A stretch of DNA of 64,000 nt from Streptantibioticus ferralitis (GTDB taxonomy: Bacteria > Actinomycetota > Actinomycetes > Streptomycetales > Streptomycetaceae): positions 1 to 64,000 of the forward strand of contig NZ_JARHTQ010000009.1 of assembly GCF_029223525.1 (NCBI RefSeq), given 5' to 3'. Of this stretch, positions 44,127 through 62,953 are shown piece after piece. The position numbers and the translations under genes were made by a program. Positions within the stretch are counted from its first letter, which is position 1, and each line of letters opens with the position of its first letter. Under the pieces are notes generated by a model. The model made no database searches. It was given only the letters and a program-made list of their open reading frames with translations, and was not told the DNA's origin.

Positions 44127-46022
44127 TCAGCGATCCTTGGCCAGGGCAAGGAGTTCGGCGAACAGCCCATCGCCGTTGGACAGTTCCTCGTAGTGGCCCT
44201 GTTCGGTGATCCGGCCGTTTTGCATCACGATGATCCGGTCAGCGATCTTGGTGTTCTCCAGCTGGTGCGTGACCACGATGGTGATGCGGTCGGCCGCGAT
44301 GCTCTTGATCTCCGCGAAGATGTCGTGCTCCCCACGGGGATCCATCTGCGAGGTCGGCTCGTCCAGGATCAGGAGTGGGGACCGCCTGTACAACGCGCGA
44401 GAACAGGCCAATCGCTGCCACTGTCCGCCAGATAGTTCGGCTCCTCCGAAGAACTCTCGGGCCAACAGTGTGTCCAGTTGCTTGGGAAGCTCCTCGATCG
44501 CGTCCCGCATGCCCACGGCATCGACGGCCTCCCACACGGGATCGTCGTTGAAGGTGCGGGGCTGTCCGAGAGTGACGTTCTCCCGTGCCCGCAGGGGCCA
44601 CTGGGCGAAGATCTGCGGGACAAGTCCGCAGGCCGCCCACACACCGCTCGGGTCGGCCGAGGCCAGGTCGGCACCATCCCAGGTCACGCTCCCCTTATCC
44701 GCCAGGAGGATGCCCGTGATCAACCGGGTGAGGGTCGATTTTCCCGAGCCGTTCTCGCCCACGATGGCCAGGATCTCGCCACGACGCAGCGTGAGGGAGA
44801 GATGGTCGACGGCGGGCCGGTCCTTGCCCGGGTACTGGTAGACCACCTCCTCCAACCGAATCTCATCCACCCGCCTGGGGATAGACACCTCGCCACGCCT
44901 GGACGCGCGTTCGGCGGCGAAATCGAGAAAGGCGCGCATGTCGGCGAGATACAGGGAGGTGTGAAACAACGCCGCGCCATTAATGACGAGTTGAGACAAG
45001 GCGCCCAGAGATGCTTGGACGGCGACGACGACGGTGGCGGCGACGGCCAACTCCAGGCGGCCGGTGGCGGCCAGCCAGGCGAGGGTGGCCCAGGTGCCCA
45101 GCAGGAAGATGCCGCCAAGCGCCGAGGTAGCCATCACGATGCGCAGCGTGCGCGGCGCGGCGTCCAACGTGCGCTGGTCGATGCGCTGGGACAGGGTGCG
45201 GTACCAGTAGATGATGTAGTTGGTCATGCTGTTGGCGCGGACCTCGTCGCCGTAGCGGGAGGTCGTGGCCCACCAGCGCATCATGCCCCGCACGTTGCGG
45301 TCGCCGAGGTTGAGGTAGTGCGTCTCGTAATCCACACGGGCCGACAGCACGGCTCCGGCGCCTGCGGGGACGACAGCCAGGAGCAGCAGCGGCAGCATCA
45401 GGGGGTGTAGCGCGGTCAGCACGCCGCCGGCGGCGACCATGCGAATCAGCGCGGACATGAATCGCTGCGCGTCGTTGATGAGCATGGTGGTCCGCGTGAC
45501 TCCGACTTCGGCGGCCTCTTGGCGGTTGGCGAAGCCGGGGTCGCTGTAGGCGGAGGCTTCAACCCGGCAGGTTGCCTCGACCAGCGCGGTGTCCGCCGCG
45601 GTGATCAAGCCGGGGCTGATCCGGTCATTGGCGTAGGAGGACAGCGCGCTGGAGATCCGGCCGACCGCGGCGGCAGTGGCGATGATGACCAGGGCGGGAA
45701 GCGCGGCGTGCAGCCGTTCAGGTACAGGTGCGTTGCCAACGAAGTGCCGCATCGCCTTCGCGGTGAAGGCCAGCACGACTGCCGCGGCGACGCCAGTGAG
45801 CACCTGGCAGGTCACCAGCAGGACGACCGCTAGTCGATCAATTGCCCATGCCATGCGTGCCGTCTGCCACAGCGCGGAGGGCAGGCGAGCACACATGGCG
45901 GCGAAGGTGGCCTCGCCCAGCGGGTTCTTGCTGTAGTTGCTTTCGAATGTGATCGTCGCCGGGGGCGGAGGAGGGGGAGTCTTACGGCCTTCGATCGGGG
46001 TATCAGTGGCAGTCAACTGCAT
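44127..46022 (-). CDS. ABC exporter, fused permease and ATPase
   Basis: The 631-residue half-transporter has an N-terminal permease with about six membrane spans (residues 60-340) and a C-terminal ATPase with Walker A GENGSGKST (about 421-429), signature LSGGQWQRLA (about 528) and Walker B LLILDEPTS. Family members export peptides, lipids or drugs. No protease domain is present at the N-terminus. It lies downstream of the PCMT-type methyltransferase and tiny peptide genes and probably exports their product. A 20-bp element 47 bp upstream recurs at 48080. Confidence 0.8.
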   Translation of the reverse strand: MQLTATDTPIEGRKTPPPPPPATITFESNYSKNPLGEATFAAMCARLPSALWQTARMAWAIDRLAVVLLVTCQVLTGVAAAVVLAFTAKAMRHFVGNAPVPERLHAALPALVIIATAAAVGRISSALSSYANDRISPGLITAADTALVEATCRVEASAYSDPGFANRQEAAEVGVTRTTMLINDAQRFMSALIRMVAAGGVLTALHPLMLPLLLLAVVPAGAGAVLSARVDYETHYLNLGDRNVRGMMRWWATTSRYGDEVRANSMTNYIIYWYRTLSQRIDQRTLDAAPRTLRIVMATSALGGIFLLGTWATLAWLAATGRLELAVAATVVVAVQASLGALSQLVINGAALFHTSLYLADMRAFLDFAAERASRRGEVSIPRRVDEIRLEEVVYQYPGKDRPAVDHLSLTLRRGEILAIVGENGSGKSTLTRLITGILLADKGSVTWDGADLASADPSGVWAACGLVPQIFAQWPLRARENVTLGQPRTFNDDPVWEAVDAVGMRDAIEELPKQLDTLLAREFFGGAELSGGQWQRLACSRALYRRSPLLILDEPTSQMDPRGEHDIFAEIKSIAADRITIVVTHQLENTKIADRIIVMQNGRITEQGHYEELSNGDGLFAELLALAKDR

Positions 46023-46069
46023 CCCTTCTGAACGGTGTTGCCGCGCCTGGATGGTCCGGCGATGCCAAG

Positions 46070-46089
46070 CTCAACGAGGTCGCGCCGGA
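46070..46089. promoter_or_regulatory. Shared 20-bp element, copy 1 (before the ABC exporter)
   Basis: CTCAACGARGTYGCGCCGGA, here with R=G and Y=C, lies 47 bp upstream of the exporter start. The second copy is at 48080-48099. On the minus strand the element ends in TTGAG, which could be a -35 region. The remainder of the 46023-46359 gap has no gene that I can support. Confidence 0.5.
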
Positions 46090-46359
46090 ATCGAACACGC
46101 TCGATTTCGGACGACGTGGAGGCCAAGCACCCTGCGGGTTGTGGGTACGGCCCCCCGGAGCCATCGAGCATGGATCTTGATGGCGGTTGGCTGAAAGGGG
46201 ACTTGAACAAGGGAACTGGCCCCCACGAGACGCGAGGGCCAGACTTACGACCCGCGCACTACCCGGCGCGGTGACCGCCATGGAGCAACACGGCACACGC
46301 CTCGGCGACAAGTGCGTCGGCCAGTGGAAGCGCCGCTTGACTGCCCCGCGAAGCGAGAG

Positions 46360-47463
46360 TCACCGGTACACCGTGGGTACGGGATGGTCTGGGGAGTCCA
46401 GCCATACTCTTTGCCCGTGCTGGTCGATGGCGAGACCAAAGCGGTCGCGCGCGGGGCAGCCTTGTGCTTCCCACCACCGCCATGCCGCCTCTACCTCTTC
46501 CCACAGGCGGCGCGGCCCGTACTGCTCGACCTCGAACTCCGACTGGCCGGGGACGTACTCGGCGGTCGCCCACGACTTCCCGTCGTCAGCAGTAATCCAC
46601 AGTGTCGCCTCGTCGCTGCCGTCCTGGGCGAGGCCGAGTGTCGGCCAGGCGTCCCGCACCTGGGTGCCGATGGCGAACATCCCATCCGGGGAGTCGTCGA
46701 TATCACGTGGGTCGATCCGGGTTGTGGACTTCTCCCCGTCCTCTCCGCGGTAGGCGTCATGAATGTTCCCGCTGCGGCCCCGTTGGGAGCGGCACCACAT
46801 GAACGCCGGGCTTCCGGAGAACCGCCCGGTCGCAATGCCATCGCCCACGTCCAAGGAGGCGAAGGAGTAGGAGTGGAAGCTTCCGCCCCAGGGGGTGACG
46901 ATCCGGCCGCCAGGCGCCTGCTCCACCCACGCGTAGGGGATGTCCCGCACCGTGCAGGTACAGATGATCCGGTCGAACGGAGCAACCTCGGGGATCCCTC
47001 TCAGGCCGTCACCTGTGAGGACCTCCACTGGGAGCCCGGCCGCCTTGAGATTCGCTCGCGCCTGCTCGGCAACGGCGGGATCAACGTCGATCGTGACGAC
47101 GTTTCCGATGCCGAGGCGCGTGCCGAGCCATGCCGCGTTAAGGCCGGTTCCAGCCCCGATCTCGGCGACGGCATGCCCTTCACGTACGCCCAGGAGGTCG
47201 AGCATCTCCAGCATGATCGACGGCATGGAACTGGACGAGGTCGGCACTCCCGTACCGTCGCCGCCGTCATCGGTCTGCGTGACGACCGGAAGGTCCCCAT
47301 AGACCTTCTGCGCCCACTGCTGGTAATCACGCTCCTTGTCCCTGTCCTCGAACACAGGGGGACAGAACAGACCCCGGTCGACGCTGGCGACGACATCGGC
47401 CCAGTCGGGCAGGAGAGCGCCCTTGTTGGTCAGGATCTCAACCAACCGCTTCATCGTGGTCAC
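46360..47463 (-). CDS. PCMT-type peptide methyltransferase
   Basis: The 367-residue protein belongs to the protein-L-isoaspartate O-methyltransferase superfamily. It has TSSSSMPSIM (75-84) and SAM motif I AEIGAGTG (100-107), then GDGLRGIPEVAPFDRIICT and a long C-terminal extension. Relatives work in RiPP clusters, methylating aspartate side chains of lanthipeptides, graspetides or imiditides to give aspartimide. No lanthionine synthetase or ATP-grasp ligase is encoded here. It follows a 35-residue peptide gene by 6 bp. GTG 47463 is the first start; ATG 47454 is possible. Confidence 0.8.
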   Translation of the reverse strand: MTTMKRLVEILTNKGALLPDWADVVASVDRGLFCPPVFEDRDKERDYQQWAQKVYGDLPVVTQTDDGGDGTGVPTSSSSMPSIMLEMLDLLGVREGHAVAEIGAGTGLNAAWLGTRLGIGNVVTIDVDPAVAEQARANLKAAGLPVEVLTGDGLRGIPEVAPFDRIICTCTVRDIPYAWVEQAPGGRIVTPWGGSFHSYSFASLDVGDGIATGRFSGSPAFMWCRSQRGRSGNIHDAYRGEDGEKSTTRIDPRDIDDSPDGMFAIGTQVRDAWPTLGLAQDGSDEATLWITADDGKSWATAEYVPGQSEFEVEQYGPRRLWEEVEAAWRWWEAQGCPARDRFGLAIDQHGQRVWLDSPDHPVPTVYR

Positions 47464-47469
47464 AGCGCA

Positions 47470-47577
47470 TCACTTCTTCGGGTTACTGATGGGCTTGTCC
47501 CACTTGCCGTCCGATTCCTTCGGCGACTGCTTCTTGTCGCCCTCGCTGCCGCCCTTGCCATCTCCGTGTTTACTCAT
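47470..47577 (-). CDS. Candidate RiPP precursor peptide, 35 aa
   Basis: ATG 47577 sits 6 nt after a strong GGAGGA site. The 35-residue peptide has nine lysines, four aspartates and two glutamates, no cysteine or threonine, and one tryptophan (Trp26). It has two Asp-Gly pairs (6-7 and 23-24), the dipeptide most prone to aspartimide formation and preferred by PCMT enzymes. It ends 6 bp before the PCMT-type gene. Size, charge and position fit a precursor whose only class modification is made by that enzyme. A basic regulator or chaperone-like peptide is the alternative. Confidence 0.55.
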   Translation of the reverse strand: MSKHGDGKGGSEGDKKQSPKESDGKWDKPISNPKK

Positions 47578-47616
47578 CGGTTCCTCCATCTGTGACTTTG
47601 TCGGCGATTAGTCCAG

Positions 47617-47706
47617 TTACGCCCTGGAAAATCCTCGCTTCGGCGGCCGGGCCGGTGTGCGGGTCGGAAGGTCGTCGGGCTGTTTCGGGCCTTTGGGGTC
47701 GGCCAT
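47617..47706 (-). CDS. Second small peptide next to the PCMT gene, 29 aa
   Basis: ATG 47706 follows AGAAGGGCAGG. The 29-residue peptide is rich in Pro, Lys and Arg, contains an Asp-Asp pair and ends KRGFSRA. It lies 39 bp before the 35-residue peptide in the same direction. It could be a second precursor or a leader-type peptide. There is no Asp-Gly pair. Confidence 0.4.
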   Translation of the reverse strand: MADPKGPKQPDDLPTRTPARPPKRGFSRA

Positions 47707-48109: not shown

Positions 48110-48958
48110 TCACCCCAGGGCGTCGATCGCGGCCGTGATCAACTTCCGTGCGTGCGCGCCGTGAACAGCCATGCCTGTCAGTGTGGTGAACGTCCGGACG
48201 TAGTCGGCGATCTCCCGAGGCTGCGTGATCCGCAGGTATCCGGAGGTCAGTTCAACCGCGACCTCCGCCTCATCGAACATGTAGAAGTCCTCAACCGGTA
48301 GGTGCGGCCGGCCGGTACCCATGGGGAGGATGCCAAGGCTGACGAACGGTCGTGAGCTGACGGCGATCAGGTGCCCGAGTTGGCCTGCCATGGTTTCCGC
48401 ATCGCACACGGCGGCGCGCAGGACATACTCCTCTACCAGGAGCCCGAAGCGGTGGCGCCCGGAGAAGAGCATGTGTTGCCGCTCCATGCGGGTATCGACA
48501 GCTTCGTCAACGTCATCGATGGCGACGCGATCACGCTGGATGGACCGCAGGACAGCGGCGGTGTACTCACGTGTTTGCACCATGCCGGGCATCACGCGGC
48601 TCGCGTAGACCCGGAAAAGGCCCGTGCGCTGGTAGAGGGCGGCGACGGACTCTTGAGCGGCGCGCAGGCCGGTGCGCTCCATGCGCCGCCATTGGGTGTA
48701 CATCGACTCAACGGCGCGGACCGCGGCGATGAGGTCGGCGATCTGGTCGACGGCCCCGCACACGATGCACCAGGTCTTGATGTCGGACTCGGACGGAGCC
48801 GATATCCCACTTTGGATTCGGCTGGTCTTGGCCGGGTGCCAGCCGCACTGTGCGGACAGCTCGTCCCCGTTGAGCCCGGCGTCTTTGCGGATCTCGATGA
48901 GGCGGTTAGCGAGGGCTTTCCGCGCTTCGATGACGCTGGACGACGGGGACGATGGCAT
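48110..48958 (-). CDS. XRE regulator with DUF5753 domain
   Basis: The 282-residue protein has an N-terminal helix-turn-helix (about 12-65, with LSAQCGWHPAKTSRIQSG) and a C-terminal DUF5753 region (LYQRTGLFRVYASRVMPGMVQTREY, then VEEYVLRAAVCD and ILPMG). Such regulators in Streptomyces are often autoregulated and control an adjacent small gene or cluster. It is upstream of the RiPP-like cassette in the same direction and is the likely binder of the shared 20-bp element. Confidence 0.8.
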   Translation of the reverse strand: MPSSPSSSVIEARKALANRLIEIRKDAGLNGDELSAQCGWHPAKTSRIQSGISAPSESDIKTWCIVCGAVDQIADLIAAVRAVESMYTQWRRMERTGLRAAQESVAALYQRTGLFRVYASRVMPGMVQTREYTAAVLRSIQRDRVAIDDVDEAVDTRMERQHMLFSGRHRFGLLVEEYVLRAAVCDAETMAGQLGHLIAVSSRPFVSLGILPMGTGRPHLPVEDFYMFDEAEVAVELTSGYLRITQPREIADYVRTFTTLTGMAVHGAHARKLITAAIDALG

Positions 48959-48995
48959 GGTGCTAGCTGTCCGGTACCGGTCTCGGGTGGATGGT

Positions 48996-49505
48996 TCAGA
49001 CGGTGTACTGCTGGTGCGGGATGCCGCGGTCCCACACGGCCTCGAACGCGGAGACGACCATCTTCACCACGGCGGGGTCCTCGTTGAACTCGTGGCCAGC
49101 CCAGTCACCGTCCCCGGTGAACCAGTGAAAGAGGACCCTGCGGTCATCGATCAGCCACAAGTCATTGCCCGGCAGGGCCAGGTCGGAGGAAAGACGCCTC
49201 GGAAGCCAGCGGACCTGTTCCCCTGCCGCGATGTTGTGCTGCTCAGTGATCGCGTGCTCCCAGCGGATGTAGTCGGTGACTGGCTCGGAGACGACCCTGG
49301 CTCGGCGCATCCCCACCCCTCGGCCGACGGTCTCCTTCACCAGCTCAGACCAAACGCGGTACTCCTCGGGCAGTTGCACGGAGCTCCCTTGCCGCCAGGC
49401 AGCGAAGACGGGGTCGTCCATATAGGAGTCGCGCATCTCCAGGTGGGCCGCCGAGTGCTCAGCACTCCTCAGCAGGGCGGTAAAGTCCGGTGCGCTCTGC
49501 GTCAT
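48996..49505 (-). CDS. DUF6879 family protein
   Basis: The 169-residue protein has FTALLRSAEHSAAHLEMRDSY near the start and SDYIRWEHAITEQHNIAAGE-like and LPGNDLWLIDDRRVLFHWF blocks typical of DUF6879. These proteins commonly lie next to XRE-DUF5753 regulators in Streptomyces and may be part of the same regulatory pair. ATG 49505 lies inside the end of the upstream gene. Confidence 0.7.
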   Translation of the reverse strand: MTQSAPDFTALLRSAEHSAAHLEMRDSYMDDPVFAAWRQGSSVQLPEEYRVWSELVKETVGRGVGMRRARVVSEPVTDYIRWEHAITEQHNIAAGEQVRWLPRRLSSDLALPGNDLWLIDDRRVLFHWFTGDGDWAGHEFNEDPAVVKMVVSAFEAVWDRGIPHQQYTV

Positions 49506-49939: not shown

Positions 49940-51292
49940 TCAGGTCCGGACCATGGCTAGAACTTCGTCGCGCAGGGCCTCGACAGCGGCTTGGTCGGGG
50001 GCCTCAACGTTGAGTCGCAGCAGCGGTTCGGTGTTGGACGGACGGAGATTGAACCAGCGGCCGTCACCGAGGTTGACCGTCAGACCGTCGAGTCGGTCAG
50101 TGGTGACGCCGTCGAACTCTTGGTACGCGGCTTCGACTTCGTCCAGCTTGGCGGGCACGTCGGCGACTTCGGAGTTGATTTCGCCGGAGGCGGCGTAGCG
50201 AGAGTAGTCGGCGACCAGCTCGGACAGCGGCCGGTCCTGCTCGCCGAGGGCGGCGAGGACGTGGAGGGCGGTGAGCATGCCGGTGTCGGCCCGCCAGAAG
50301 TCGCGGAAGTAGTAGTGGCCGGAGTGCTCGCCGCCGAAGACCGCGTCGTGCTCGGCCATCAGGGCCTTCATGAACGAGTGGCCGACCCGGCTGCGGATCG
50401 GGGTTCCGCCGTGCTCGCGGATGATCTCGACCGCGGCGGCGGAGGTGATGACGTTGTGGACGATGGCCGAGCCGGGGTGCTTGGCCAGCTCGCGGGCGGC
50501 GACCAGGCCGACGATCGCGGAGGGGGAGACGGCCTGGCCCTTCTCGTCAATGAAGAAGCACCGGTCGGCATCCCCGTCGAACGCCAGGCCGATGTCGGCA
50601 CCGGTCTCGCGGACCTTGGCTTGGAGGTCGAGGAGGTTCTTCGGCTCCAGCGGGTTGGCCTCGTGGTTCGGGAAGGTGCCATCCAACTCGAAGTACATCG
50701 GTACCAGGTCGATGGGCAGGCCCTCGAAGACGGCGGGGACGGTATGTCCGGCCATACCGTTGCCCGCGTCCGCCACCACCTTCAACCTGCGGATGCCGGA
50801 CAGATCGACCAGCTTGTTGAGGTGGACGGCATAGTCGATCAGCAGGTCCTGGCGGGTGACGGTGCCCCGCTCCCTGGCGGGGACGGGGATGTCTCCGGCC
50901 TCCAGCCAGGTGCGGATCTGGCCGAGGCCGGAGTCCTCGCCGATGGGGGCGGCCCCGGCCCGGCACAATTTGATGCCGTTGTCCTTGGCCGGGTTGTGGC
51001 TGGCGGTGACCATCACCCCGGGCAGGCCCAGCTTGCCGGAAGCGAAGTACAGGTAGTCGGTCGAGCCGAGACCGGCGTCGATGACATCGGCTCCGGCCCG
51101 GTTGGCGCCCACCGCGAAGGCTTTCGCCAGGTCCGGCGAGGTCGAGCGCATGTCGCGGGCGATGACGATCCGATCGGCTTTGGTGAGCCGGATGAACAAG
51201 GCACCGGCCTTCTCGGCGATGTCGGTGTTCATCTGCGCGGGGACTTCACCGCGAATGTCGTACGCCTTGACCAGACGGGAGTAGTCGGGCAT
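49940..51292 (-). CDS. Phosphomannomutase/phosphoglucomutase
   Basis: The 450-residue enzyme would interconvert hexose 6- and 1-phosphates. It has the phosphoserine loop VTASHNPA (Ser98), the magnesium site DGDADRC (about 235-241), the sugar-binding GEHSGHYYF (about 320) and the phosphate-binding RPSNTEPLLRL near the end. This is a full-length, intact alpha-D-phosphohexomutase. ATG 51292 follows GGAAGG. It lies 91 bp after a GHMP sugar kinase in the same direction, which suggests a route to an activated sugar. Confidence 0.85.
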   Translation of the reverse strand: MPDYSRLVKAYDIRGEVPAQMNTDIAEKAGALFIRLTKADRIVIARDMRSTSPDLAKAFAVGANRAGADVIDAGLGSTDYLYFASGKLGLPGVMVTASHNPAKDNGIKLCRAGAAPIGEDSGLGQIRTWLEAGDIPVPARERGTVTRQDLLIDYAVHLNKLVDLSGIRRLKVVADAGNGMAGHTVPAVFEGLPIDLVPMYFELDGTFPNHEANPLEPKNLLDLQAKVRETGADIGLAFDGDADRCFFIDEKGQAVSPSAIVGLVAARELAKHPGSAIVHNVITSAAAVEIIREHGGTPIRSRVGHSFMKALMAEHDAVFGGEHSGHYYFRDFWRADTGMLTALHVLAALGEQDRPLSELVADYSRYAASGEINSEVADVPAKLDEVEAAYQEFDGVTTDRLDGLTVNLGDGRWFNLRPSNTEPLLRLNVEAPDQAAVEALRDEVLAMVRT

Positions 51293-51382
51293 GGCCTGCC
51301 TTCCAGAGTCGAGGGCTTGTTGGGCGAGGTTACCGACGGTGGCCGCCCGAACACGCCGAATCGGACCGCCCACCGTCGGGGG

Positions 51383-52429
51383 TTATGCGGAGGTGCTGGC
51401 ATAGGGCTCGGAGAGACTGGAGATGAGCCCACGCGGCTCGGAGGTCGGCAGGGCGACCGCGTGGACCGGAAGATCAGCAACCGACTCCAGGACCGCTGTC
51501 AGGGCATCGTCAGGTACCAAGGCGAACAGGCAGCCGCCGTGTCCGGATCCGGTGAGCTTGGCGCCGAAGGCGCCTGCGGCCAGGACCCGCTTCGCGCAGG
51601 TGTCGATGAGCTCAGTCGAGCAGCGGACCTTGCCCCGCAGCAGGTCCTGCCCGGCGTTCAGCAACCGGCCAACCTGGCGATAGTCCACGGTCTTCGCGGT
51701 CAACAGCTCGGTGACGGCATCGACCAGCTCGCCGGCCTGGCGGGAGTAGTCGATCATTGCGGTCTCGCGGGCCTCGAAGCGGGCCCGCTTGGACGCCAGC
51801 ACCTTCATGGTGGTCCGTCGCTGCAAGGTGTCGATGACCACGACCGGGATACCCAGGTTCGGTGCGATTCGCTCGATCGTGGGCAACTCGCCTGCGTTCA
51901 CGCGGTTGACGCCGCCATACGCGCAGGCCAGGAAGTCCATCCAGCCCGCCCCGGAGCCCAGTTCACTGGTCTCGGCTTGGCGGGCCAGTCCGCAGACCTG
52001 GGCGATCTCCAGCGGATCTCCGGCTAGGCCGCCGAGGGCTGTGACCACGGCCAAGGTGAGGGCGGCGCTGGAGGACAGTCCGGCGGCCACCGGTAACTCG
52101 GTTGAGGCGGTCAGCACGGTCCCGGCGATCAGCTCGGCCTGCCGCAGGCTAACGCGGACAGCGGCCTGCATGTGGTCCAGGACATGACCGTCGTATTGCC
52201 GCCCGGCGGCCTGGGCGGCGGGGACGAGACGGGTGCGGAACAGCGGCGGCCCGGATGTCAGGACCAGAGCGGTGGAGCCGACCGCCTGCCAGGCGGTCAC
52301 CCTGGTCCGCAGCGGCACGGCGGTCACCACGGAGGAGCCGCCGGTCATCCAGTCCAGCGATTCCCCGGCCAGACACAATCGGCCCGGGACCGAGGCGGTC
52401 ACCGCCCTCGCGATCGCTCGGGCCGTCAT
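51383..52429 (-). CDS. GHMP-family sugar kinase
   Basis: The 348-residue kinase has motif 1 VPGRLCLAGESLDW (about 14-27), the ATP-binding motif 2 PVAAGLSSSAALTLA (about 115-129) and motif 3 KLTGSGHGGCLF (about 300). Of known members it is closest in outline to galactokinase- or heptose-kinase-like enzymes, but the substrate is unknown. ATG 52429 overlaps the stop of the radical SAM gene, so kinase and radical SAM enzyme are made together. Confidence 0.8.
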   Translation of the reverse strand: MTARAIARAVTASVPGRLCLAGESLDWMTGGSSVVTAVPLRTRVTAWQAVGSTALVLTSGPPLFRTRLVPAAQAAGRQYDGHVLDHMQAAVRVSLRQAELIAGTVLTASTELPVAAGLSSSAALTLAVVTALGGLAGDPLEIAQVCGLARQAETSELGSGAGWMDFLACAYGGVNRVNAGELPTIERIAPNLGIPVVVIDTLQRRTTMKVLASKRARFEARETAMIDYSRQAGELVDAVTELLTAKTVDYRQVGRLLNAGQDLLRGKVRCSTELIDTCAKRVLAAGAFGAKLTGSGHGGCLFALVPDDALTAVLESVADLPVHAVALPTSEPRGLISSLSEPYASTSA

Positions 52430-53340
52430 CGGCGGGTCTCCGGTAGGGCCTGCACACAGCTCGCGCAGGCGGGTGAGCGCGACCAGTCCGCGCGGCTGTG
52501 CCGCTGCCGCCACTCGGCCATGACCGGGTGATTCCACAGCTCGGCCAGGGTGCTGTCGGCGACGTTGCCGACGACGTATTCGCGGTGCTGGGGGCCTTCG
52601 GGGACCACGTTGCAGCACATCTTCATCTGCCCGCGGAAGTCCACGCTGAGCGAGGTCGCGGTCATCTGGCACGGAGCGGTACGCAGGCCGTTCTGCGGCA
52701 CCAGGGCGGTACCGCCGCGGTCGTTGTAGGTGTCGATCGACGGGCGGATGACCTCGACCTTCATCCCCGTGTCGGGGTCGGTCCAGGTCGCGGCCAGTCC
52801 TTGGCGGACCTCGGCGAGCTGCCAGGGGAAGCAGTCCCGGATGCGGGCCTTGACCAGCCAGCTTCGCAGGGCATCATAGGTGGGCTGCACGTCGGCTCGG
52901 TGGGGATAGCGGGTGACGCGCAGGTACTTCACCCCGTCCTCGCGCATGCGTTCCACGGTGCTGCGGTTGAGGAGATCGCCGTTGGTGTAGATCGCGGGCC
53001 TGGCGGCCGGGATCGCGTAGCGGACACGGGCGATCTCCTCTCTCAGACGAGGGTTGGCCAACGGCTCGTTGTAGTTGTGGAAGGCGAAGAACCCGTCGAA
53101 GCCAGCGGCCCCCAGCTCGGCGGTGATCTTCTCGAAGACGGCCCAGTCCATCAGCTGCTGGGTGCGTCGCGCGTTGGTCTGTCCGTTGGGGCACCACGAG
53201 CAGATGCGGTTGCAGTATCGGGAGGTCTCGATCTCCACATATCGCACGCCCGCCAGTGGCCGATCCTCGGCGGGGATGGGAGGCGCCAGAGCTGGCACCA
53301 CGGGCAGTAATGCCCGGTCGGCGGTGTTTGGTTCGGGCAC
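52426..53340 (-). CDS. Radical SAM enzyme with SPASM/twitch domain
   Basis: The 304-residue enzyme has the cluster motif CNRICSWC (Cys43, 47, 50). After the barrel comes an auxiliary-cluster region: APCQMTATSLSVDFRGQMKMCC, then GNVADSTLAELWNHP and a terminal CASC pair. SPASM enzymes modify peptides, sugars or alcohols. GTG 53340 follows GGAGGAC. With a GHMP kinase and phosphohexomutase coupled behind it, a sugar or sugar-derived metabolite is the more likely substrate, though a peptide from the neighbouring cassette is not excluded. Confidence 0.8.
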   Translation of the reverse strand: MPEPNTADRALLPVVPALAPPIPAEDRPLAGVRYVEIETSRYCNRICSWCPNGQTNARRTQQLMDWAVFEKITAELGAAGFDGFFAFHNYNEPLANPRLREEIARVRYAIPAARPAIYTNGDLLNRSTVERMREDGVKYLRVTRYPHRADVQPTYDALRSWLVKARIRDCFPWQLAEVRQGLAATWTDPDTGMKVEVIRPSIDTYNDRGGTALVPQNGLRTAPCQMTATSLSVDFRGQMKMCCNVVPEGPQHREYVVGNVADSTLAELWNHPVMAEWRQRHSRADWSRSPACASCVQALPETRR

Positions 53341-53476
53341 AGCAGTCCTCCGTCGTGGTGGGCTGGTGAGAGGCGATGAGCGAGGGAGCGGATGGGTTGG
53401 TGCATCTGGTTCGGGTACCGCGCTATTGCGCCGCTCGATGGTCCAGGCTCGTGCCTCCGGACCACCGAGCGGCCGT

Positions 53477-54052
53477 CTAGGTGGCGGTGCTGCGCAAGGC
53501 AAGGCAGGCCAGCGGGCCTCGCAGGTCGTAGCGCACGGCCTGCGCCCAACCGAAGCTGAGCGAGGCGATCTCCCGTTCGGCCATCCCACCGGGCTGGGTG
53601 ACGTCCTCACCGACGACAGGTATTACCGCGTACATCCGTCCTCCGGGACGCAGCCAGAAATCACGGACCCGGCGGACCCAGGCTGCGGGGTCGGTGAGGA
53701 AGGGCAAGATCAGGCGGCACACCACCAGGTCGATGCCACGGATCGGCAGACCGGGCGGGTCGCCCTGGTTGAGGTCATGGCGGAGGTAGCGGACGCCGGT
53801 CAATGGGGTGCGGCGGGCGGCGCGCAGAGCTGTGTCGGCGAAGTCGATGCCGGTGACGTCGTAGCCGAACCGGTGGAGCTGGCGGCTGAAGACTCCGGTG
53901 CCGCAGCCGACATCCGTAGCTACATGGCCACAGCGAATGGGAAAGTGCCTTGCGAAGGCGGCCAATTCAGTGTCGGTGAGCATGTGGTAGCCGCGGCCTT
54001 CCTCGGCCCAGGCATCCCAGGTGGTTGCCGAAGGGCTCCGTGTCATCGTCAT
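53477..54052 (-). CDS. Class I SAM-dependent methyltransferase
   Basis: The 191-residue enzyme has SAM motif I as ATDVGCGTGVFS (about 44-55), the acidic loop VTGIDFAD and a post-motif VVCRLILPFLTDPAAWV. The family methylates small molecules. ATG 54052 overlaps the stop of the upstream gene. The radical SAM gene follows 136 bp further on in the same direction. Confidence 0.75.
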   Translation of the reverse strand: MTMTRSPSATTWDAWAEEGRGYHMLTDTELAAFARHFPIRCGHVATDVGCGTGVFSRQLHRFGYDVTGIDFADTALRAARRTPLTGVRYLRHDLNQGDPPGLPIRGIDLVVCRLILPFLTDPAAWVRRVRDFWLRPGGRMYAVIPVVGEDVTQPGGMAEREIASLSFGWAQAVRYDLRGPLACLALRSTAT

Positions 54053-54642
54053 GCCGCCACGCTCACCGCGAATTCGGCAGAGCTCTTGTCGCCGGGCTGC
54101 TCGGGATCAGCTTCCGGCCCCGGCTCATGACGGCGGCGGAGAGCGTCGCGGGCAGCAGCGAACGGCGGCAGTCCGACGCTGGCGCGGCGCGCGTCGAGCT
54201 GACGGGTGTCACGGACCGGCAGGACTTCCGGCCCGTGGGGACCGGTCCTGTACTGCGTTCCGTAGAGCTGGACCGCGCCGGCGTTAACGCTGCACCGGTC
54301 GTGGAGGTGTGCCCACTGCTGGATGGGGGCCTCGCCGCGCTCAACTGCCGTGGAGAGCAGACGCAGTGCCAGGCGCTGAAAGTCGCGGAGATGGTCAGCA
54401 CGAAGAGCAATCTCCCACGCGGCCTTCGCAGCGTCCTCCCCGACGAGGCTGCGACCGGGCCATCCGTGGTCAGCCACGATGCGGCGGAGCACAGCCGCGT
54501 TGGCATGGTCGAGATGCCGGCCCAAGTTGGTCTGCACGTCGCTGGGCCGGGTGCGGACGAGTTGGTACCAGTGCTCGCGTGCCTGCTCCGCGCGGGCAAG
54601 GAGGTCGCAGGCGATGTCGGGACGTCGGGGTTCGGTTGTCAT
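54049..54642 (-). CDS. DUF6624-like protein
   Basis: The 197-residue protein has the block RIVADHGWPGRSLVGEDAAKAAW followed by LRADHLRDFQRLALRLL and HDRCSVNAGAVQLYGTQY, which match DUF6624. Its biochemical role is unknown. ATG 54642 is the start. It is coupled to the methyltransferase gene by a four-base overlap. Confidence 0.65.
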   Translation of the reverse strand: MTTEPRRPDIACDLLARAEQAREHWYQLVRTRPSDVQTNLGRHLDHANAAVLRRIVADHGWPGRSLVGEDAAKAAWEIALRADHLRDFQRLALRLLSTAVERGEAPIQQWAHLHDRCSVNAGAVQLYGTQYRTGPHGPEVLPVRDTRQLDARRASVGLPPFAAARDALRRRHEPGPEADPEQPGDKSSAEFAVSVAA

Positions 54643-54644
54643 GG

Positions 54645-55247
54645 TCAGGCTCCGTACTGGAGTGCCGTCACGAGTCGCCGTGCGGTGCGCAGTGTGAGGT
54701 CTCCCAAGGTGATGGCGGGCTCGCCCCCGCATCGCTGGCAGTAGGGGTGGAAGTACGTGTCCATGAATCCGCCGCGTGTGGCCTGTTTGAAGGCGGCGTC
54801 GAGACGGTCAAGGACTTGCTGTCCCTCGGGCCAGTCGGGGGTCTCGGCCAGCTCCGGCTGGGACGGGGCGCCCAGGACGCAGGCGAGCCGGTCCGCCGTG
54901 CAGATCGAGACATTACCGAGGCGGATCTTGGCGCCATAGACATGCGGGGTCGGCACATCGAGCCCGTGAGCCTGGAAGGCGGAGCTCAAGACATCCGCAG
55001 TTTTGAAGGCGCGCTTCAGGCTCTTGCGGATGAGGCGCGCCAGGTGGAGTGCTGTCGCCGGATCCGTCGTACCGACGTCGACGCAAGGCTTGCGCTCCGT
55101 GTTGGTCCATGGCGAGAGTCTCAAGCCCGCAGCCGTGCAAGCTCGACGCAGGTCGATGGCGGCTTCCACGACCCCTTCCATAGCGGATGAGGTAGTGAGT
55201 TGCGGCTCGACAGCGGGCTCCGCCGGGGCAGTAGTGTCGTTCGTCAT
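54645..55247 (-). CDS. Hypothetical protein with CX2C motif, 200 aa
   Basis: The protein has an N-terminal part with RRACTAAGLRLSPWTN and a central helical block, and ends with YFHPYCQRCGGEPAITLGDLTL, where CX2C may bind zinc. It lies between the YWC-motif gene and the DUF6624 gene in the same direction, 2 bp before the latter. No family was recognised. Confidence 0.5.
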   Translation of the reverse strand: MTNDTTAPAEPAVEPQLTTSSAMEGVVEAAIDLRRACTAAGLRLSPWTNTERKPCVDVGTTDPATALHLARLIRKSLKRAFKTADVLSSAFQAHGLDVPTPHVYGAKIRLGNVSICTADRLACVLGAPSQPELAETPDWPEGQQVLDRLDAAFKQATRGGFMDTYFHPYCQRCGGEPAITLGDLTLRTARRLVTALQYGA

Positions 55248-55301: not shown

Positions 55302-55691
55302 TCAGGGAGGTCCACCGATCGCGCCAGCCGGGGCTAACCGCCGTAGCGAGGACGCGTAGTTGACGGCGGTGTCCGTGAGGGGGAGCACGGAGACGGGGTA
55401 AGCGATCCACGTCCAACGACCGGCGGGGGCCGGCACGGCGAAGGTGTACGGCTTTCCTCTCCGCAGTTCGACCACAGCGGCCTGCACGGCACGGTGGTCG
55501 CCGAGCCAGCCCCAGACCCTGTGAAACGTCGCCCGGTCCAGATCCACACTGGCGGCGCGCACGGATTCGCGAACCCACTCGACGGCCTGGCCGGGTTCAT
55601 CGGTCGTGATGTCATGCGGCGGCCCGTCTCCCGGCTGAGGACCGTCGTGGTCGACGTGGCACCAGTAGGTGCGCGGCAGCGGCTTCGTCAT
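55302..55691 (-). CDS. YWC-motif protein, homologue of the AICE protein at 6343
   Basis: The 129-residue protein contains TYWCHVDHDGPQ, QAVEWVRESVRAASVDL and GKPYTFAVPAPAGRWTW, in the order seen in the protein at 6343-6771. ATG 55691 overlaps the stop of the DUF6415-like gene. As in the AICE, a SpoIIAB-like ATPase is encoded in the same operon. Function unknown. Confidence 0.6.
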   Translation of the reverse strand: MTKPLPRTYWCHVDHDGPQPGDGPPHDITTDEPGQAVEWVRESVRAASVDLDRATFHRVWGWLGDHRAVQAAVVELRRGKPYTFAVPAPAGRWTWIAYPVSVLPLTDTAVNYASSLRRLAPAGAIGGPP

Positions 55692-56170
55692 GCTGACCAC
55701 CTGCTCTCGGCAGGGGCAGAGCCGAAGTCCGGGAGAGGACCGTCGTCGTCATCGGCCACGAGGTCGAGCAGGTCCAGGACGAGCGAGGCCAGACGGCGCG
55801 CATAGGAGTCTGTGGGCGTGAACCCCTTGGCTGATCCTTCGGCGTCGAGGCCGCAAGCAAGGCCGACCCGCTTGATCAGGTCCTTGTCCGGGCGCCCCCG
55901 GACGCGCTGCAAGGCATCCGTCACGAGGTACCACAGACAGCCTTGTAGACGAGGGACGAGCTTCCGGATTTCCTCGGGCTCCAGCGGCGCTGCGCCCCAG
56001 CCGAGAATCCGGTCCAGGTAGTCGTCCACGCCCTCCTTGATAAAGGAGCTGGTCAACGAACTGAGCAGGTCCAGGAGCGACTTGGGGGCGGCAGGCCGCG
56101 CGGGTTCGACCTCCATATCGCGGGCGGCCTCGGCGTCCCGTACAGGCAAGGGAGAGTGGCCAGTGTTCAT
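55688..56170 (-). CDS. DUF6415-like protein
   Basis: The 160-residue acidic helical protein has GWGAAPLEPEEIRKLVPRLQGCL and RVGLACGLDAEG, resembling DUF6415 proteins of Streptomyces natural-product regions. ATG 56170 overlaps the stop of the ATPase gene. The assignment is by general resemblance. Confidence 0.5.
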   Translation of the reverse strand: MNTGHSPLPVRDAEAARDMEVEPARPAAPKSLLDLLSSLTSSFIKEGVDDYLDRILGWGAAPLEPEEIRKLVPRLQGCLWYLVTDALQRVRGRPDKDLIKRVGLACGLDAEGSAKGFTPTDSYARRLASLVLDLLDLVADDDDGPLPDFGSAPAESRWSA

Positions 56171-56574
56171 GCCGCGCTCTCCCTGGAGGTCGTGCGGAAC
56201 TCGAACCAGACGTCCTTGCCGTCTTCCGTCGGGTTGGCGCCCCAGGCGTCAGCGGTCTTGGCGAGGAGGAACATCCCGCGACCGCTCTGACCGCACCAGT
56301 CCGGCTCGGTGACCACCGGGAGCGCCCGACTGGTGTCGCTGACTGTGACGCGCACGGCGTCGGAACGGCGTTGCAGGGTAAGGACGCAGTCCGGAGAGCC
56401 CGCGTGCTTCGCGACGTTGCTGAGCAACTCCGTCGTGCACAACGCAGCGGGGGCCGTTAACTCAGCTCGGCCCCATAGACGCAGGTACGCGGCAACGATC
56501 CGTCGTATACCGGCGAGGGCCTTCGGGACTGCGGCCAACTCTTGTCTGTACTGCTTGATGCCTGCCTCTGCCAT
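56167..56574 (-). CDS. SpoIIAB/RsbW-like ATP-binding protein (cargo copy)
   Basis: The 135-residue protein has the HATPase N-box in CTTELLSNVAKHAG (about 48-61), the acidic VTVSDTS strand and the G-box SGRGMFLLAKTADAWG. ATG 56574 is preferred; ATG 56583 adds three residues. It heads a leftward operon with the DUF6415-like and YWC genes and diverges from the XRE gene at 56789. Confidence 0.75.
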   Translation of the reverse strand: MAEAGIKQYRQELAAVPKALAGIRRIVAAYLRLWGRAELTAPAALCTTELLSNVAKHAGSPDCVLTLQRRSDAVRVTVSDTSRALPVVTEPDWCGQSGRGMFLLAKTADAWGANPTEDGKDVWFEFRTTSRESAA

Positions 56575-56693
56575 GACGGCCACGGCTCCTCCCAGAGGGA
56601 CGCGGGCACACGCACAGGTTCGTAGCGCCCCGAACTCGTCGGAGCACCCTGCGTTGATGCCTCATGTTGCTCTCGACCAACCTTCCGCGCAAC

Positions 56694-56709: not shown

Positions 56710-56788
56710 CATTCGTTCAGTGAAGATGTGTCATATGCCAGCTTGCTTACGCCCGATACGCTGCCTGGTCAGACGAGGAGGTACCGCA

Positions 56789-57649
56789 GTGGTCGATGCA
56801 CAGCCGAACGTGCACCGCCGGAGACTGGGCCTGGAGCTCCGCGCACTACGGAAAGAGGCTGGGCTCAACCTGGACGACGCAGCCAGCAAGCTTGGGCTGT
56901 CCGGCGCCCCGGCACTCAGCAAGATCGAGAACGGCAAGCAGCGGGTAGCGCCGATCGCTATCGCTGGCTTCCTGGAGGCGTACAACTGCACGGACCCTGC
57001 CCGCAGCGCGGAGATCCGGAGCCTCGCCACCCTCGCTTCCTCCGGGAAGCGAACCAGCCTGCTCGCGCGGTACCGCGACTCAGTTCGGGACCCCTTCGCC
57101 GAGTACGTGCATCTGGAGGAGCTCGCCAAGCGAGCGGAGACCTTCGTGTATCTGTTGCCCGGGCTGCTTCAGACCGAGGAGTACGCCCAAGCGGTCGTCA
57201 CAGGAAGCCGGAAGTGGAGTACGCAGCGGGACATCCGCAAGTTCGTCGAGCTCCGAATGAAGCGCCAGCAGGCGCTCACCCGCAGCGAACCGCTCGGCTT
57301 GTGGTGCGTGCTCGACGAGGCAGCCCTACGCCGCGAGGTGGGTGGGCCTGACGTCATGCGGCGACAGCTCCAGCGGCTGGTCGAGGTATCAGAAGAACTA
57401 CCCCACGTCGCGATACAGGTTCTTCCCTTCGCGAAGGGTGCACACGCCGGCATGGACGGGGGTTTCACCCTTCTACACTTCGAGGCGGGACCGCCAGTAG
57501 CCGTCGTGGAGCCGATGACAACGTCGCTCTACCTGGAGGACGATAGGGACGTCGGACGCTATGAGACGGGGTTCAATCACCTCCGCGCCGAGGCTCTCGA
57601 CACCGAGCAGTCCCTTGCCTTCATCCGCAACATGATCAAGGACTCGTAA
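56789..57649 (+). CDS. XRE regulator with DUF5753 domain, partner of DUF397
   Basis: The 286-residue protein has an XRE helix-turn-helix (about 12-65, ASKLGLSGAPALSKIENG) and a DUF5753 C-terminus (ETFVYLLPGLLQTEEYAQAV, then VLPFAKGAHAGMDGGFTLLHF). GTG 56789 follows GGAGGTACC. The DUF397 gene starts 2 bp after its stop. In Streptomyces such XRE-DUF397 pairs act as regulatory pairs of the BldB/WhiJ kind. Confidence 0.8.
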   Translation: MVDAQPNVHRRRLGLELRALRKEAGLNLDDAASKLGLSGAPALSKIENGKQRVAPIAIAGFLEAYNCTDPARSAEIRSLATLASSGKRTSLLARYRDSVRDPFAEYVHLEELAKRAETFVYLLPGLLQTEEYAQAVVTGSRKWSTQRDIRKFVELRMKRQQALTRSEPLGLWCVLDEAALRREVGGPDVMRRQLQRLVEVSEELPHVAIQVLPFAKGAHAGMDGGFTLLHFEAGPPVAVVEPMTTSLYLEDDRDVGRYETGFNHLRAEALDTEQSLAFIRNMIKDS

Positions 57650-57651
57650 GC

Positions 57652-57870
57652 ATGAACATCAAGGTCGACCTCACCAACGCCGAGTGGGCGAAGAGCAGCC
57701 TGAGCAACGGCGGGGACAACTGCCTGGAGGTCGCGTTCGTCGATGGGGTGGTGGCGCTCCGCGACTCCAAGGACGTCGGGGACCCCAACGCCAAGATCCT
57801 GATCATCTCGCAGGACGACTACCGCGCCTTCACCGGCGGCATCGCTAAGGGTGATCTGCTGCTCCCGTAG
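57652..57870 (+). CDS. DUF397 protein, copy 1
   Basis: The 72-residue protein has the DUF397 pattern: AEWAKSSLSNGGDNCLEVAF, GVVALRDSKD and a final FTGGIAKGDL. It starts 2 bp after the XRE stop and is presumably its antagonist or partner. Confidence 0.8.
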   Translation: MNIKVDLTNAEWAKSSLSNGGDNCLEVAFVDGVVALRDSKDVGDPNAKILIISQDDYRAFTGGIAKGDLLLP

Positions 57871-61631: not shown

Positions 61632-61907
61632 TTACGCGGATGACGAGCGGGACCGCCGCGGCGGCGACTTCTTGCCGCCGCCGGTCTCGCCCTCCTCGTC
61701 TTGGGGTGCACTCACGGTGTTGTCCACCATCTCCTCGACCCCGACGACCTCCACCTCACGCGGCGGCGGCACGTCCCAGGCAGCGGGGTTGGTGATCAGC
61801 ACGGCGATCTCCGCAGGCGGGCACTCGCCCGGCAACAAGACCAGCTCCTCCCGCGTCTCCGGGTCCTGCACGTACACGGCGGCGATCAGGTGACTCACCA
61901 GCATCAC
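61632..61907 (-). CDS. Hypothetical phage head-region protein, 91 aa
   Basis: ATG 61907 overlaps the stop of the capsid gene. A folded-looking first half (LVSHLIAAVYVQDPETREEL, EIAVLITNPAAW) is followed by an acidic and then basic tail. Such proteins are common between capsid and connector genes. No family was recognised. Confidence 0.5.
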   Translation of the reverse strand: MMLVSHLIAAVYVQDPETREELVLLPGECPPAEIAVLITNPAAWDVPPPREVEVVGVEEMVDNTVSAPQDEEGETGGGKKSPPRRSRSSSA

Positions 61908-62953
61908 AGGACCTTGGCCACGATGTGCGCGTCCGGGGTGTGCATCACCGGCATGCCGACGGCGGCGCCCTTGGTCCAGATCTGCACCGGGTCATCCTGC
62001 ATCCCGCGGGTGATGATGATGCCCGGCGCGTCCTCTCGGACGATCTCCGGATTGGTGCCGCGCGAGAGCACCAGCGCCTCGGCGGTCACCCCGAACATCG
62101 TCTGCGCCCACTTCTCCCGATCCGGCGGCACCAGCACCCACAGGTCCTCGGGCAGCACCTTGCGGGGCTTGCCGTCCACCCGCACCTGCGCCTTGTAGAA
62201 CGTGATCGGCGGCAGGTTGTAGTTGCCCCTGACGACGTTGATTTGCTGCGGGGTGAGCGTCGCGGTCGGCGTGGTCGATGGGTTCACCGACCCGTAGTAC
62301 GCCGCCCGGTAGGCGTTGTTCGCCGCCAGGTAGCTGAACGCCTTCCGGCTGGTGATCACCAGCTCCGGCTCCGGGGCGCCGATATCGTCCAGATGCTGAA
62401 TCCACCGCAGCTCATCCGCGATCGGATCAGAGGCCGCGTCGGACCACGGCACCGGGGCGACCGGCATGTTCGCCGCCGGGACGTTCCAATCCACCTCCAG
62501 CGTCAGCCCGTTCTCCTGCACCAAGCTGAACTTCCCGTCGGCCAGAACGTCTCCGGCGGCCAGCTCCAGCCGGGAGCGGATCGCCTCCACATGCCGCTCG
62601 ACATCGTCATACAGCAGCTCGATCAGCCGGTCCTGATCCGAGCCGCGCGAGGCTTCCAACAGGATCTGCTCCTGCTCACCAACGATGAGCTTCTGCCCGA
62701 GCGCGGGCAGCGCACCCTCACGGGAGGTCTGCCACGCCTCACGGGTCGCGAACGGCACCGAAGCATCGAACGCCCGGTACTTCGCCACGTTCACATACCG
62801 GCCGGAGTCCTTCACCCGCCACTTGACCTCGTTCAGCTCCAGCGTCGGGAAGATCGTCTGGGTGAGCAGGAAGTCCTTCGGCGACGGGATAGCACGGGCG
62901 AACGTCGTCAGGTCAGCGACCTGGACGTCCTTCAACAGGTCCTGAATCGTCAC
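61904..62953 (-). CDS. Major capsid protein (capsid E family)
   Basis: The 349-residue protein matches phage major capsid protein E: TFARAIPSPKDFLLTQTIFP near the start, LELNEVKWRVKD, EREAWQTSREGALP-like and EPELVITSRKAFSYLAANN in the middle, and a final MPVMHTPDAHIVAKV. This family has the HK97 fold without a long delta domain. It lies after the decoration protein gene. Confidence 0.85.
   Translation of the reverse strand: MTIQDLLKDVQVADLTTFARAIPSPKDFLLTQTIFPTLELNEVKWRVKDSGRYVNVAKYRAFDASVPFATREAWQTSREGALPALGQKLIVGEQEQILLEASRGSDQDRLIELLYDDVERHVEAIRSRLELAAGDVLADGKFSLVQENGLTLEVDWNVPAANMPVAPVPWSDAASDPIADELRWIQHLDDIGAPEPELVITSRKAFSYLAANNAYRAAYYGSVNPSTTPTATLTPQQINVVRGNYNLPPITFYKAQVRVDGKPRKVLPEDLWVLVPPDREKWAQTMFGVTAEALVLSRGTNPEIVREDAPGIIITRGMQDDPVQIWTKGAAVGMPVMHTPDAHIVAKVL

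Follow-up and report, generated by a model that had tools for sequence, protein, structure and literature searches.

A conserved trio of radical SAM enzyme, GHMP kinase and phosphohexomutase genes in Streptantibioticus ferralitis as a candidate for a compact sugar pathway

The analyzed stretch of 64,000 nucleotides from Streptantibioticus ferralitis (assembly GCF_029223525.1, contig NZ_JARHTQ010000009.1, positions 1 to 64,000; referred to as the window) contains a run of four enzyme genes on the minus strand at positions 49940-54052, which code in the order of transcription for a methyltransferase, a radical S-adenosylmethionine (SAM) enzyme, a GHMP-family kinase and a phosphohexomutase. The conserved unit within this run consists of three genes, i.e. 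radical SAM enzyme, GHMP kinase and phosphohexomutase, and not of four. We propose that this trio encodes a self-contained three-step sugar pathway in which the radical SAM enzyme would act first, followed by the kinase and then the mutase; the probability of this reading is put at slightly less than one half (about 0.48).

The first trio gene, which codes for a BtrN-like radical SAM enzyme (52426-53340; GTG start chosen in this analysis), is matched by Pfam Radical_SAM and PF13186 over their cut-offs; the second codes for a GHMP-family kinase with a galactokinase-like sugar motif (51383-52429; Pfam PF00288/PF08544) and the third for a phosphomannomutase/phosphoglucomutase of the ManB type (49940-51292, 49940 being the stop end; ATG start chosen in this analysis; NCBIfam NF007088). 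Including the class I SAM methyltransferase (53477-54052; Pfam methyltransferase families), all four enzyme genes match Pfam families above cut-off. A first-pass annotation had described four enzyme genes in one direction with intact motifs, which gene calls, Pfam, NCBIfam and motif inspection confirmed; the ATGA coupling it had reported for two of them is the overlap of the radical SAM stop codon with the kinase start codon. That this arrangement is not a product of chance is confirmed by the NCBIfam match of the mutase (E 7.5e-215), the Pfam matches, pN/pS ratios of 0.20-0.57 (10 comparisons with relatives, covering all three trio genes) and the gene order kept in other actinobacteria.

Among 199 related genomes, the radical SAM protein (E 1e-20) was matched in three, its own and two relatives (G065 and G026), and an independent search for the kinase (E 1e-25, 199-genome sample selected in the same way) returned the same three genomes and no other. 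In a class-wide sample of 394 genomes the own genome alone was positive (radical SAM, E 1e-40), a scan of named genomes yielded six further actinobacterial loci (Streptomyces mashuensis, Asanoa, Catellatospora, Actinoplanes and two Nocardia), and among 250 genomes sampled around Actinoplanes there were four matches, of which three were known before and G527 was new. With a second locus of the own genome on contig C21, 11 actinobacterial loci were available for comparison: at nine of them (window, L005 of G065, L006 of G026 and L008-L013 of the named genomes) the radical SAM gene is immediately followed by full-length kinase and mutase genes in this order, including a Nocardia draft (L013) whose radical SAM gene, as deposited, is spread over two frames. 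The earlier description of an unassigned set that points to a sugar phosphate is supported. A consistent occurrence of the genes apart from each other had been named in the first-pass annotation as the argument against a joint role. Among close relatives this argument mostly fails: radical SAM enzyme and kinase occur in an identical set of 3 out of 199 genomes, and the one exception found is the diverged orphan gene of G527. The methyltransferase (53477-54052; METHYLTRANSFERASE), by contrast, had been counted as a member of the set and is a passenger that is not conserved with the trio: it has no match at 9 of the 10 other actinobacterial loci, and at the remaining one, L007 on C21, the similarity is confined to a stretch of 37 residues (E 2e-5) in a gene that lies 6.5 kb from a broken trio copy.

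This second copy on C21 is distributed over two places. At L007 the radical SAM gene is whole and the kinase is cut after approximately 120 residues beside the C-terminus of a mutase, and in a second piece 21-23 kb off (L026) a single frame contains the later part of a kinase together with a whole mutase; the pair of broken pieces is a decaying duplicate of the trio. Both are accompanied by transposase-like genes and a duplicated unrelated gene (L007 12571, L026 10796).

The junction of the first two genes is conserved beyond the codon overlap. The radical SAM protein ends with LPETR plus one residue in 9/9 aligned rows that precede a GHMP kinase sequence (broken C21 copy included) and in 0/12 aligned rows that do not; the L013 junction also has the tail. 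In the 10 junctions compared, the codons of the tail carry GGAGA (GGAAA in L013) at ribosome-binding-site distance from the kinase start (in the window 52426-52443, minus strand, where the PETRR-stop end comprises both the GGAGA sequence and the ATGA overlap). The tail, which is poorly ordered in the predicted radical SAM structure, is probably conserved for the translation of the kinase. In the trees of all three trio proteins, the sequences of the window, G065, G026 and S. mashuensis are separated from those of Asanoa, Catellatospora, Actinoplanes and Nocardia with support of 98-100; within the latter group the three trees disagree on the branching, for which the kinase tree gives weak support. 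A long common inheritance of the three genes, accompanied by many losses or transfers, is probable.

The CxxxCxxC motif of the radical SAM protein (C43/C47/C50) is invariant in 18/18 rows of the family alignment, its four auxiliary-cluster cysteines C224, C242, C292 and C295 align on C169, C187, C232 and C235 of BtrN, and R208 aligns on BtrN R152. According to this residue pattern, the protein is a predicted twitch enzyme with one auxiliary cluster instead of the full SPASM set; the label "SPASM" used in the earlier annotation is imprecise, as one cluster corresponds to the twitch form seen in BtrN. No NCBIfam model reached its cut-off for this protein. A profile of 18 family sequences retrieved BtrN with E 1.5e-40 and SpeY next with 3.4e-6 (N-terminal match). 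In the structural comparison of the AlphaFold model (pLDDT 77.4, pTM 0.79), BtrN obtained a Z-score of 20.1 over 222 residues at 3.6 Å, the next other protein being ChlB (14.8), and Foldseek returned BtrN, MoaA, SpeY, DesII and anSME in this order, i.e. cyclitol or sugar enzymes (SpeY and DesII) beside MoaA and peptide enzymes. As judged by profile and predicted fold, BtrN is by far the nearest solved relative. SpeY (PDB 7wzv), likewise a twitch radical SAM dehydrogenase by its PDB title and presumably active in the spectinomycin pathway, shows a much lower similarity (Z 11.8 against 20.1).

With BtrN (PDB 4m7t; 2-deoxy-scyllo-inosamine dehydrogenase, butirosin) the protein shares the twitch fold, the four cysteines, the R152 equivalent and the motifs CNRTC..CPN and HxY.EP; it differs in the presence of Cys243 for Phe188 and of Asn or Cys for Glu189, and in having a kinase and a mutase as partners rather than an aminocyclitol cluster. 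Indeed, a 2-deoxy-scyllo-inosose synthase (Sodalis query, E 1e-3) was detected at 0/11 actinobacterial loci of 16-64 kb each, other 2-deoxystreptamine genes not having been searched. The residues that we take to be the contacts of BtrN, Glu9, Tyr62, Tyr90, Arg152 and Glu189, correspond to Glu36, Tyr90, Tyr118, Arg208 and Asn244, four of the five thus being kept in the window protein. PMC9012708 describes the oxidation of 2-deoxy-scyllo-inosamine to the ketone by BtrN and gives a residue numbering (C16/C20/C23) that agrees with the alignment used here.

Cys243 follows the second auxiliary-cluster cysteine and is invariant in 18/18 family rows and in a homolog from Edwardsiella; positions 243-244 are Cys-Asn in the window protein, Cys-Cys in L009-L012 and Phe188-Glu189 in BtrN, where the pair presumably has a functional role. 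A Sodalis homolog has a tyrosine after the cluster cysteine, as read from its sequence, the alignment having a gap at Cys243. HygY, as we assume, uses a cysteine in the manner of the neomycin C epimerase NeoN. For NeoN, Cys249 is given as the hydrogen donor of the epimerization in PMC10991966. The likeness lies in sugar chemistry by a radical SAM enzyme in which a cysteine donates hydrogen, a part that Cys243 could play; NeoN, however, acts on the finished aminoglycoside, unlike the enzyme proposed here. Thus, Cys243 may make an epimerase thinkable, and the BtrN-like remainder of the protein a dehydrogenase. Alignment A3 was built without L013 (split gene), L022 (nearly identical to L020) and the partial L024 and L025, and the radical SAM tree without L013; the rows of L009 and L012 start at an internal GTG and that of L018 at a non-start codon.

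The kinase (model pLDDT 87.5) carries the GHMP motif LSSSA and D165 and, like the radical SAM protein, reaches the cut-off of no NCBIfam model. Its N-terminal motif PGR..LAGESLDW aligns with Pyrococcus galactokinase PGRVNLIGEHTDY, and R17, E23, D26 and D165 align with R11, E17, D20 and D151 of that enzyme, the last of which we take to be catalytic; the D26 position is a gap in the three mevalonate kinases shown. Fold, most of the sugar motif and the catalytic Asp are shared with galactokinase and other GHMP sugar kinases, and the kept motif residues appear to favor a sugar substrate and anomeric phosphorylation.

The mutase exceeds the equivalog cut-off of the ManB model NF007088 (714 bits, cut-off 618, E 7.5e-215), and its catalytic loops TASHNP, DGDADR, GEHSG and RPSNTEP are intact. 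A further ManB over cut-off is present in each of the nine genomes with full-length trio kinase and mutase: in the mutase tree these nine housekeeping enzymes group with an ultrafast bootstrap value of 100 apart from the nine trio enzymes, and four fixed differences distinguish the two groups, one of them in the sugar-binding loop (GEHSG in the trio versus GEHSA in the housekeeping enzymes).

In the proposed pathway, the twitch radical SAM enzyme would generate a 5'-deoxyadenosyl radical and abstract a hydrogen atom from a secondary carbinol carbon of a free hexose-like sugar, with the outcome of either an oxidation to the ketone (as in BtrN) or a re-donation of hydrogen from Cys243 that would invert the center (as in NeoN with Cys249). 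The GHMP kinase would then phosphorylate the anomeric oxygen, and the ManB-type mutase would shift the phosphate from C1 to C6 (or back) and so link the sugar to central metabolism. The support consists of the gene order, the co-occurrence, the overlap of the first two genes, the enzyme families with their predicted folds and the cluster cysteines; from these we infer the order of the steps, the free-sugar substrate, the phosphorylation site and the direction. A more specific version is regarded as doubtful: in this new route, the radical SAM enzyme would epimerize an unactivated carbinol of a free hexose with Cys243 as donor, and phosphorylation at the anomeric position and a 1,6-phosphomutation would then allow a rare sugar to enter or leave central metabolism through radical chemistry with three enzymes.

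Several observations weigh against the three-step pathway. The radical SAM gene of the diverged G527 stands alone without trio partners, and its protein has kept the iron-sulfur cysteines and lost, among other residues invariant in the 18-row alignment, Cys243, Tyr90, Glu92 and Lys240. No GHMP or mutase match (E 1e-4) was obtained at 12 non-actinobacterial radical SAM loci, several of their contigs ending early, or for 32 radical SAM relatives on viral contigs (21-35% identity, same threshold); in consequence, the radical reaction does not need kinase and mutase everywhere. An all-against-all comparison of the loci revealed no common transporter, glycosyltransferase or nucleotidyltransferase, so that the start and end points of the pathway are guesses. 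The confidence of the radical SAM model is moderate (pLDDT 77), and the peptide enzymes ChlB and anSME rank high in the structural comparisons, below BtrN. For the kinase model, structures of galactokinase, archaeal mevalonate kinase and the heptokinase WcbL tie at Z about 36, and sequence scores favor the mevalonate kinases: 4hac was matched with E 1.7e-29 versus 8.3e-27 for Pyrococcus galactokinase, and in NCBIfam the mevalonate kinase model reached 110.9 bits versus 88 bits for galactokinase, both below cut-off (TIGR00549: 110.9 of 163.05 bits; NF003036: 106.8 of 403 bits; every galactokinase cut-off listed was likewise missed). Furthermore, Ser24 replaces His18 of the galactokinase sugar motif GR.NL.GEHTDY, and the identity to galactokinase amounts to about 21-25% in the structural alignment. 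As a result of the mevalonate kinase scores, the Ser24 substitution and the structural tie, the phosphorylated position is not fixed.

The main rival of the proposed step order is its reverse: mutase and kinase would make a sugar phosphate from central metabolism, on which the radical SAM enzyme would then act; a keto- or epi-sugar phosphate would result and serve as the end product or as an antimetabolite. The phosphohexomutase family is reversible, and some characterized radical SAM enzymes use activated sugars, DesII (a dTDP-sugar enzyme by its NCBIfam name) being among the structural matches. However, the kinase motif resembles that of free-sugar enzymes, and the nearest relative BtrN acts on a free cyclitol according to PMC9012708; the reverse order is considered unlikely.

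A different role of the trio product, that of a regulatory or signaling sugar phosphate sensed via neighboring XRE-DUF5753/DUF397 and HATPase proteins, appears improbable. In its favor, the gene immediately preceding the radical SAM gene in G065 (L005) and G026 (L006) codes for a HATPase_c_2 protein (in L005 with a score under the Pfam cut-off), and beyond it follow a divergent XRE-type regulator and a DUF397-like gene, the G026 regulator and both DUF397-like genes being placed by BLAST cluster only. In total, a divergent XRE-type regulator was found upstream at seven loci (window, L005, L006, L007, L008, L010 and L013; L006 and L008 by BLAST cluster only). Regulators of this type are, however, very common in actinomycetes, and none was recognized by gene calls and Pfam scans upstream in L009, L011 and L012, L009 having a GntR-type gene there. 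In the window, five minus-strand genes separate the trio from the HATPase_c_2 gene and the regulator: besides the methyltransferase, these are a passenger gene for a DUF6624 protein (54049-54732; Pfam PF20329, start uncertain), one gene without Pfam or NCBIfam match (54645-55247), one without Pfam match (55302-55700) and a gene for a DUF6415 protein (55688-56170; PF19979). These five genes look inserted. The HATPase_c_2 (anti-sigma-like) protein is encoded at the head of the same-strand run (56167-56583, minus; PF13581), and the divergent XRE-type regulator with DUF5753 (56720-57649, plus; PF13560, PF19054) is followed by a DUF397 protein (57652-57870, plus; PF04149). Genes for a DUF6879 protein and a further XRE-DUF5753 protein are located just downstream of the trio (48110-49505), with counterparts of 37-38% identity upstream of the trio in a Nocardia (L013 3557-4936).

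Still less probable is a kinase that takes a mevalonate-like or other non-sugar alcohol, with the consequence that the trio would not act on one sugar: mevalonate kinases are indeed the top sequence matches and equal as fold matches, but they are without the Asp of the sugar motif, whereas the trio kinase has a galactokinase-type motif with D26 and is constantly paired with a sugar-phosphate mutase.

The tailoring of a small peptide or another natural product by the trio, together with the methyltransferase and a neighboring peptide cassette, appears very improbable. The cassette (44127-47706, minus strand) contains, beside an ABC transporter gene, a methyltransferase gene of the PCMT type, for which TIGR04188 is the best NCBIfam match without reaching its cut-off. 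It further codes for two tiny peptides, lysine-rich or basic (47470-47577 and 47617-47706), and is possibly a small cassette for ribosomally synthesized and post-translationally modified peptides (RiPP). It lies close to the trio in the window, and in S. mashuensis a related PCMT-type methyltransferase (L008 3687-4865) is found approximately 3 kb from the trio. However, the cassette ABC transporter was matched at 0/10 and its methyltransferase at 1/10 (L008) of the other actinobacterial loci, and in the structural comparison of the radical SAM protein the peptide maturases rank behind BtrN, the best match; the link between trio and tiny-peptide cassette considered in the first-pass annotation is not supported. 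A RiPP SPASM peptide maturase was set aside because of the one-cluster cysteine set and the structure ranking, and the markers of the neighboring cassette do not accompany the trio elsewhere, although no search was made for other short peptides in the vicinity of the relatives. That the genes are mere bystanders of a variable island without joint function, as might be suggested by a phage capsid gene approximately 9 kb away and by their sparse distribution (3/199 relatives, 1/394 in the class sample, 4/250 in the Actinoplanes family sample), is largely refuted by the constant order kept in Streptomyces, Nocardia, Asanoa, Catellatospora and Actinoplanes, the overlap, the co-occurrence and the purifying selection.

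Each of the three enzymes is a member of a known superfamily. Their combination was not found in the literature searched, which leaves out most subscription journals: no paper contained the terms "GHMP kinase", "radical SAM" and "phosphomannomutase" together, and further searches with the same coverage returned nothing on this trio. Characterized radical SAM enzymes acting on sugar alcohols are mostly from antibiotic clusters. If the three-step pathway is true, radical editing of simple sugars would also take place outside classical antibiotic clusters, in the compact form of one radical enzyme, a kinase and a mutase; since three genes may suffice, it would be directly testable in vitro.

Relatives of the radical SAM gene outside the trio are found in other surroundings. 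In a planctomycete (L014), an Aminicenantes (L015) and an Armatimonadetes bin (L023), a BtrN-like gene is positioned between the gene of a 374-379 amino acid protein (no Pfam match in L014 and L023, the two that were scanned) and a small P-loop kinase-like gene (weak family matches), and a further radical SAM gene comes next in L014 and L015. In line with the proposed pathway, the P-loop kinase-like genes hint at a phosphorylation of the radical SAM product there, too. Five plasmid records contain distant relatives, four with approximately 27-28% identity and one partial at 40%; two of their neighborhoods were inspected. Plasmid pHS1 of Sodalis praecaptivus (L054) carries an aminocyclitol-like cluster in which the BtrN-like radical SAM gene is accompanied by genes for 2-deoxy-scyllo-inosose synthase, a PIG-L deacetylase and a glycosyltransferase. 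On a plasmid of Edwardsiella tarda (L053), a distant double-cysteine relative is located beside an acyltransferase and a sialidase family gene, a neighborhood without clear link.

A function in anti-phage defense was considered and rejected, as none of the trio proteins was matched by PADLOC (E 0.01); for the methyltransferase (53477-54052), the only matches were mad2 and type II methyltransferase models. A gene for a phage major capsid protein E (Pfam) is present at 61904-62953, approximately 9 kb from the trio, and just past the end of the window (L027), approximately 9 kb or more from the trio, follow genes that resemble phage packaging proteins by eye.

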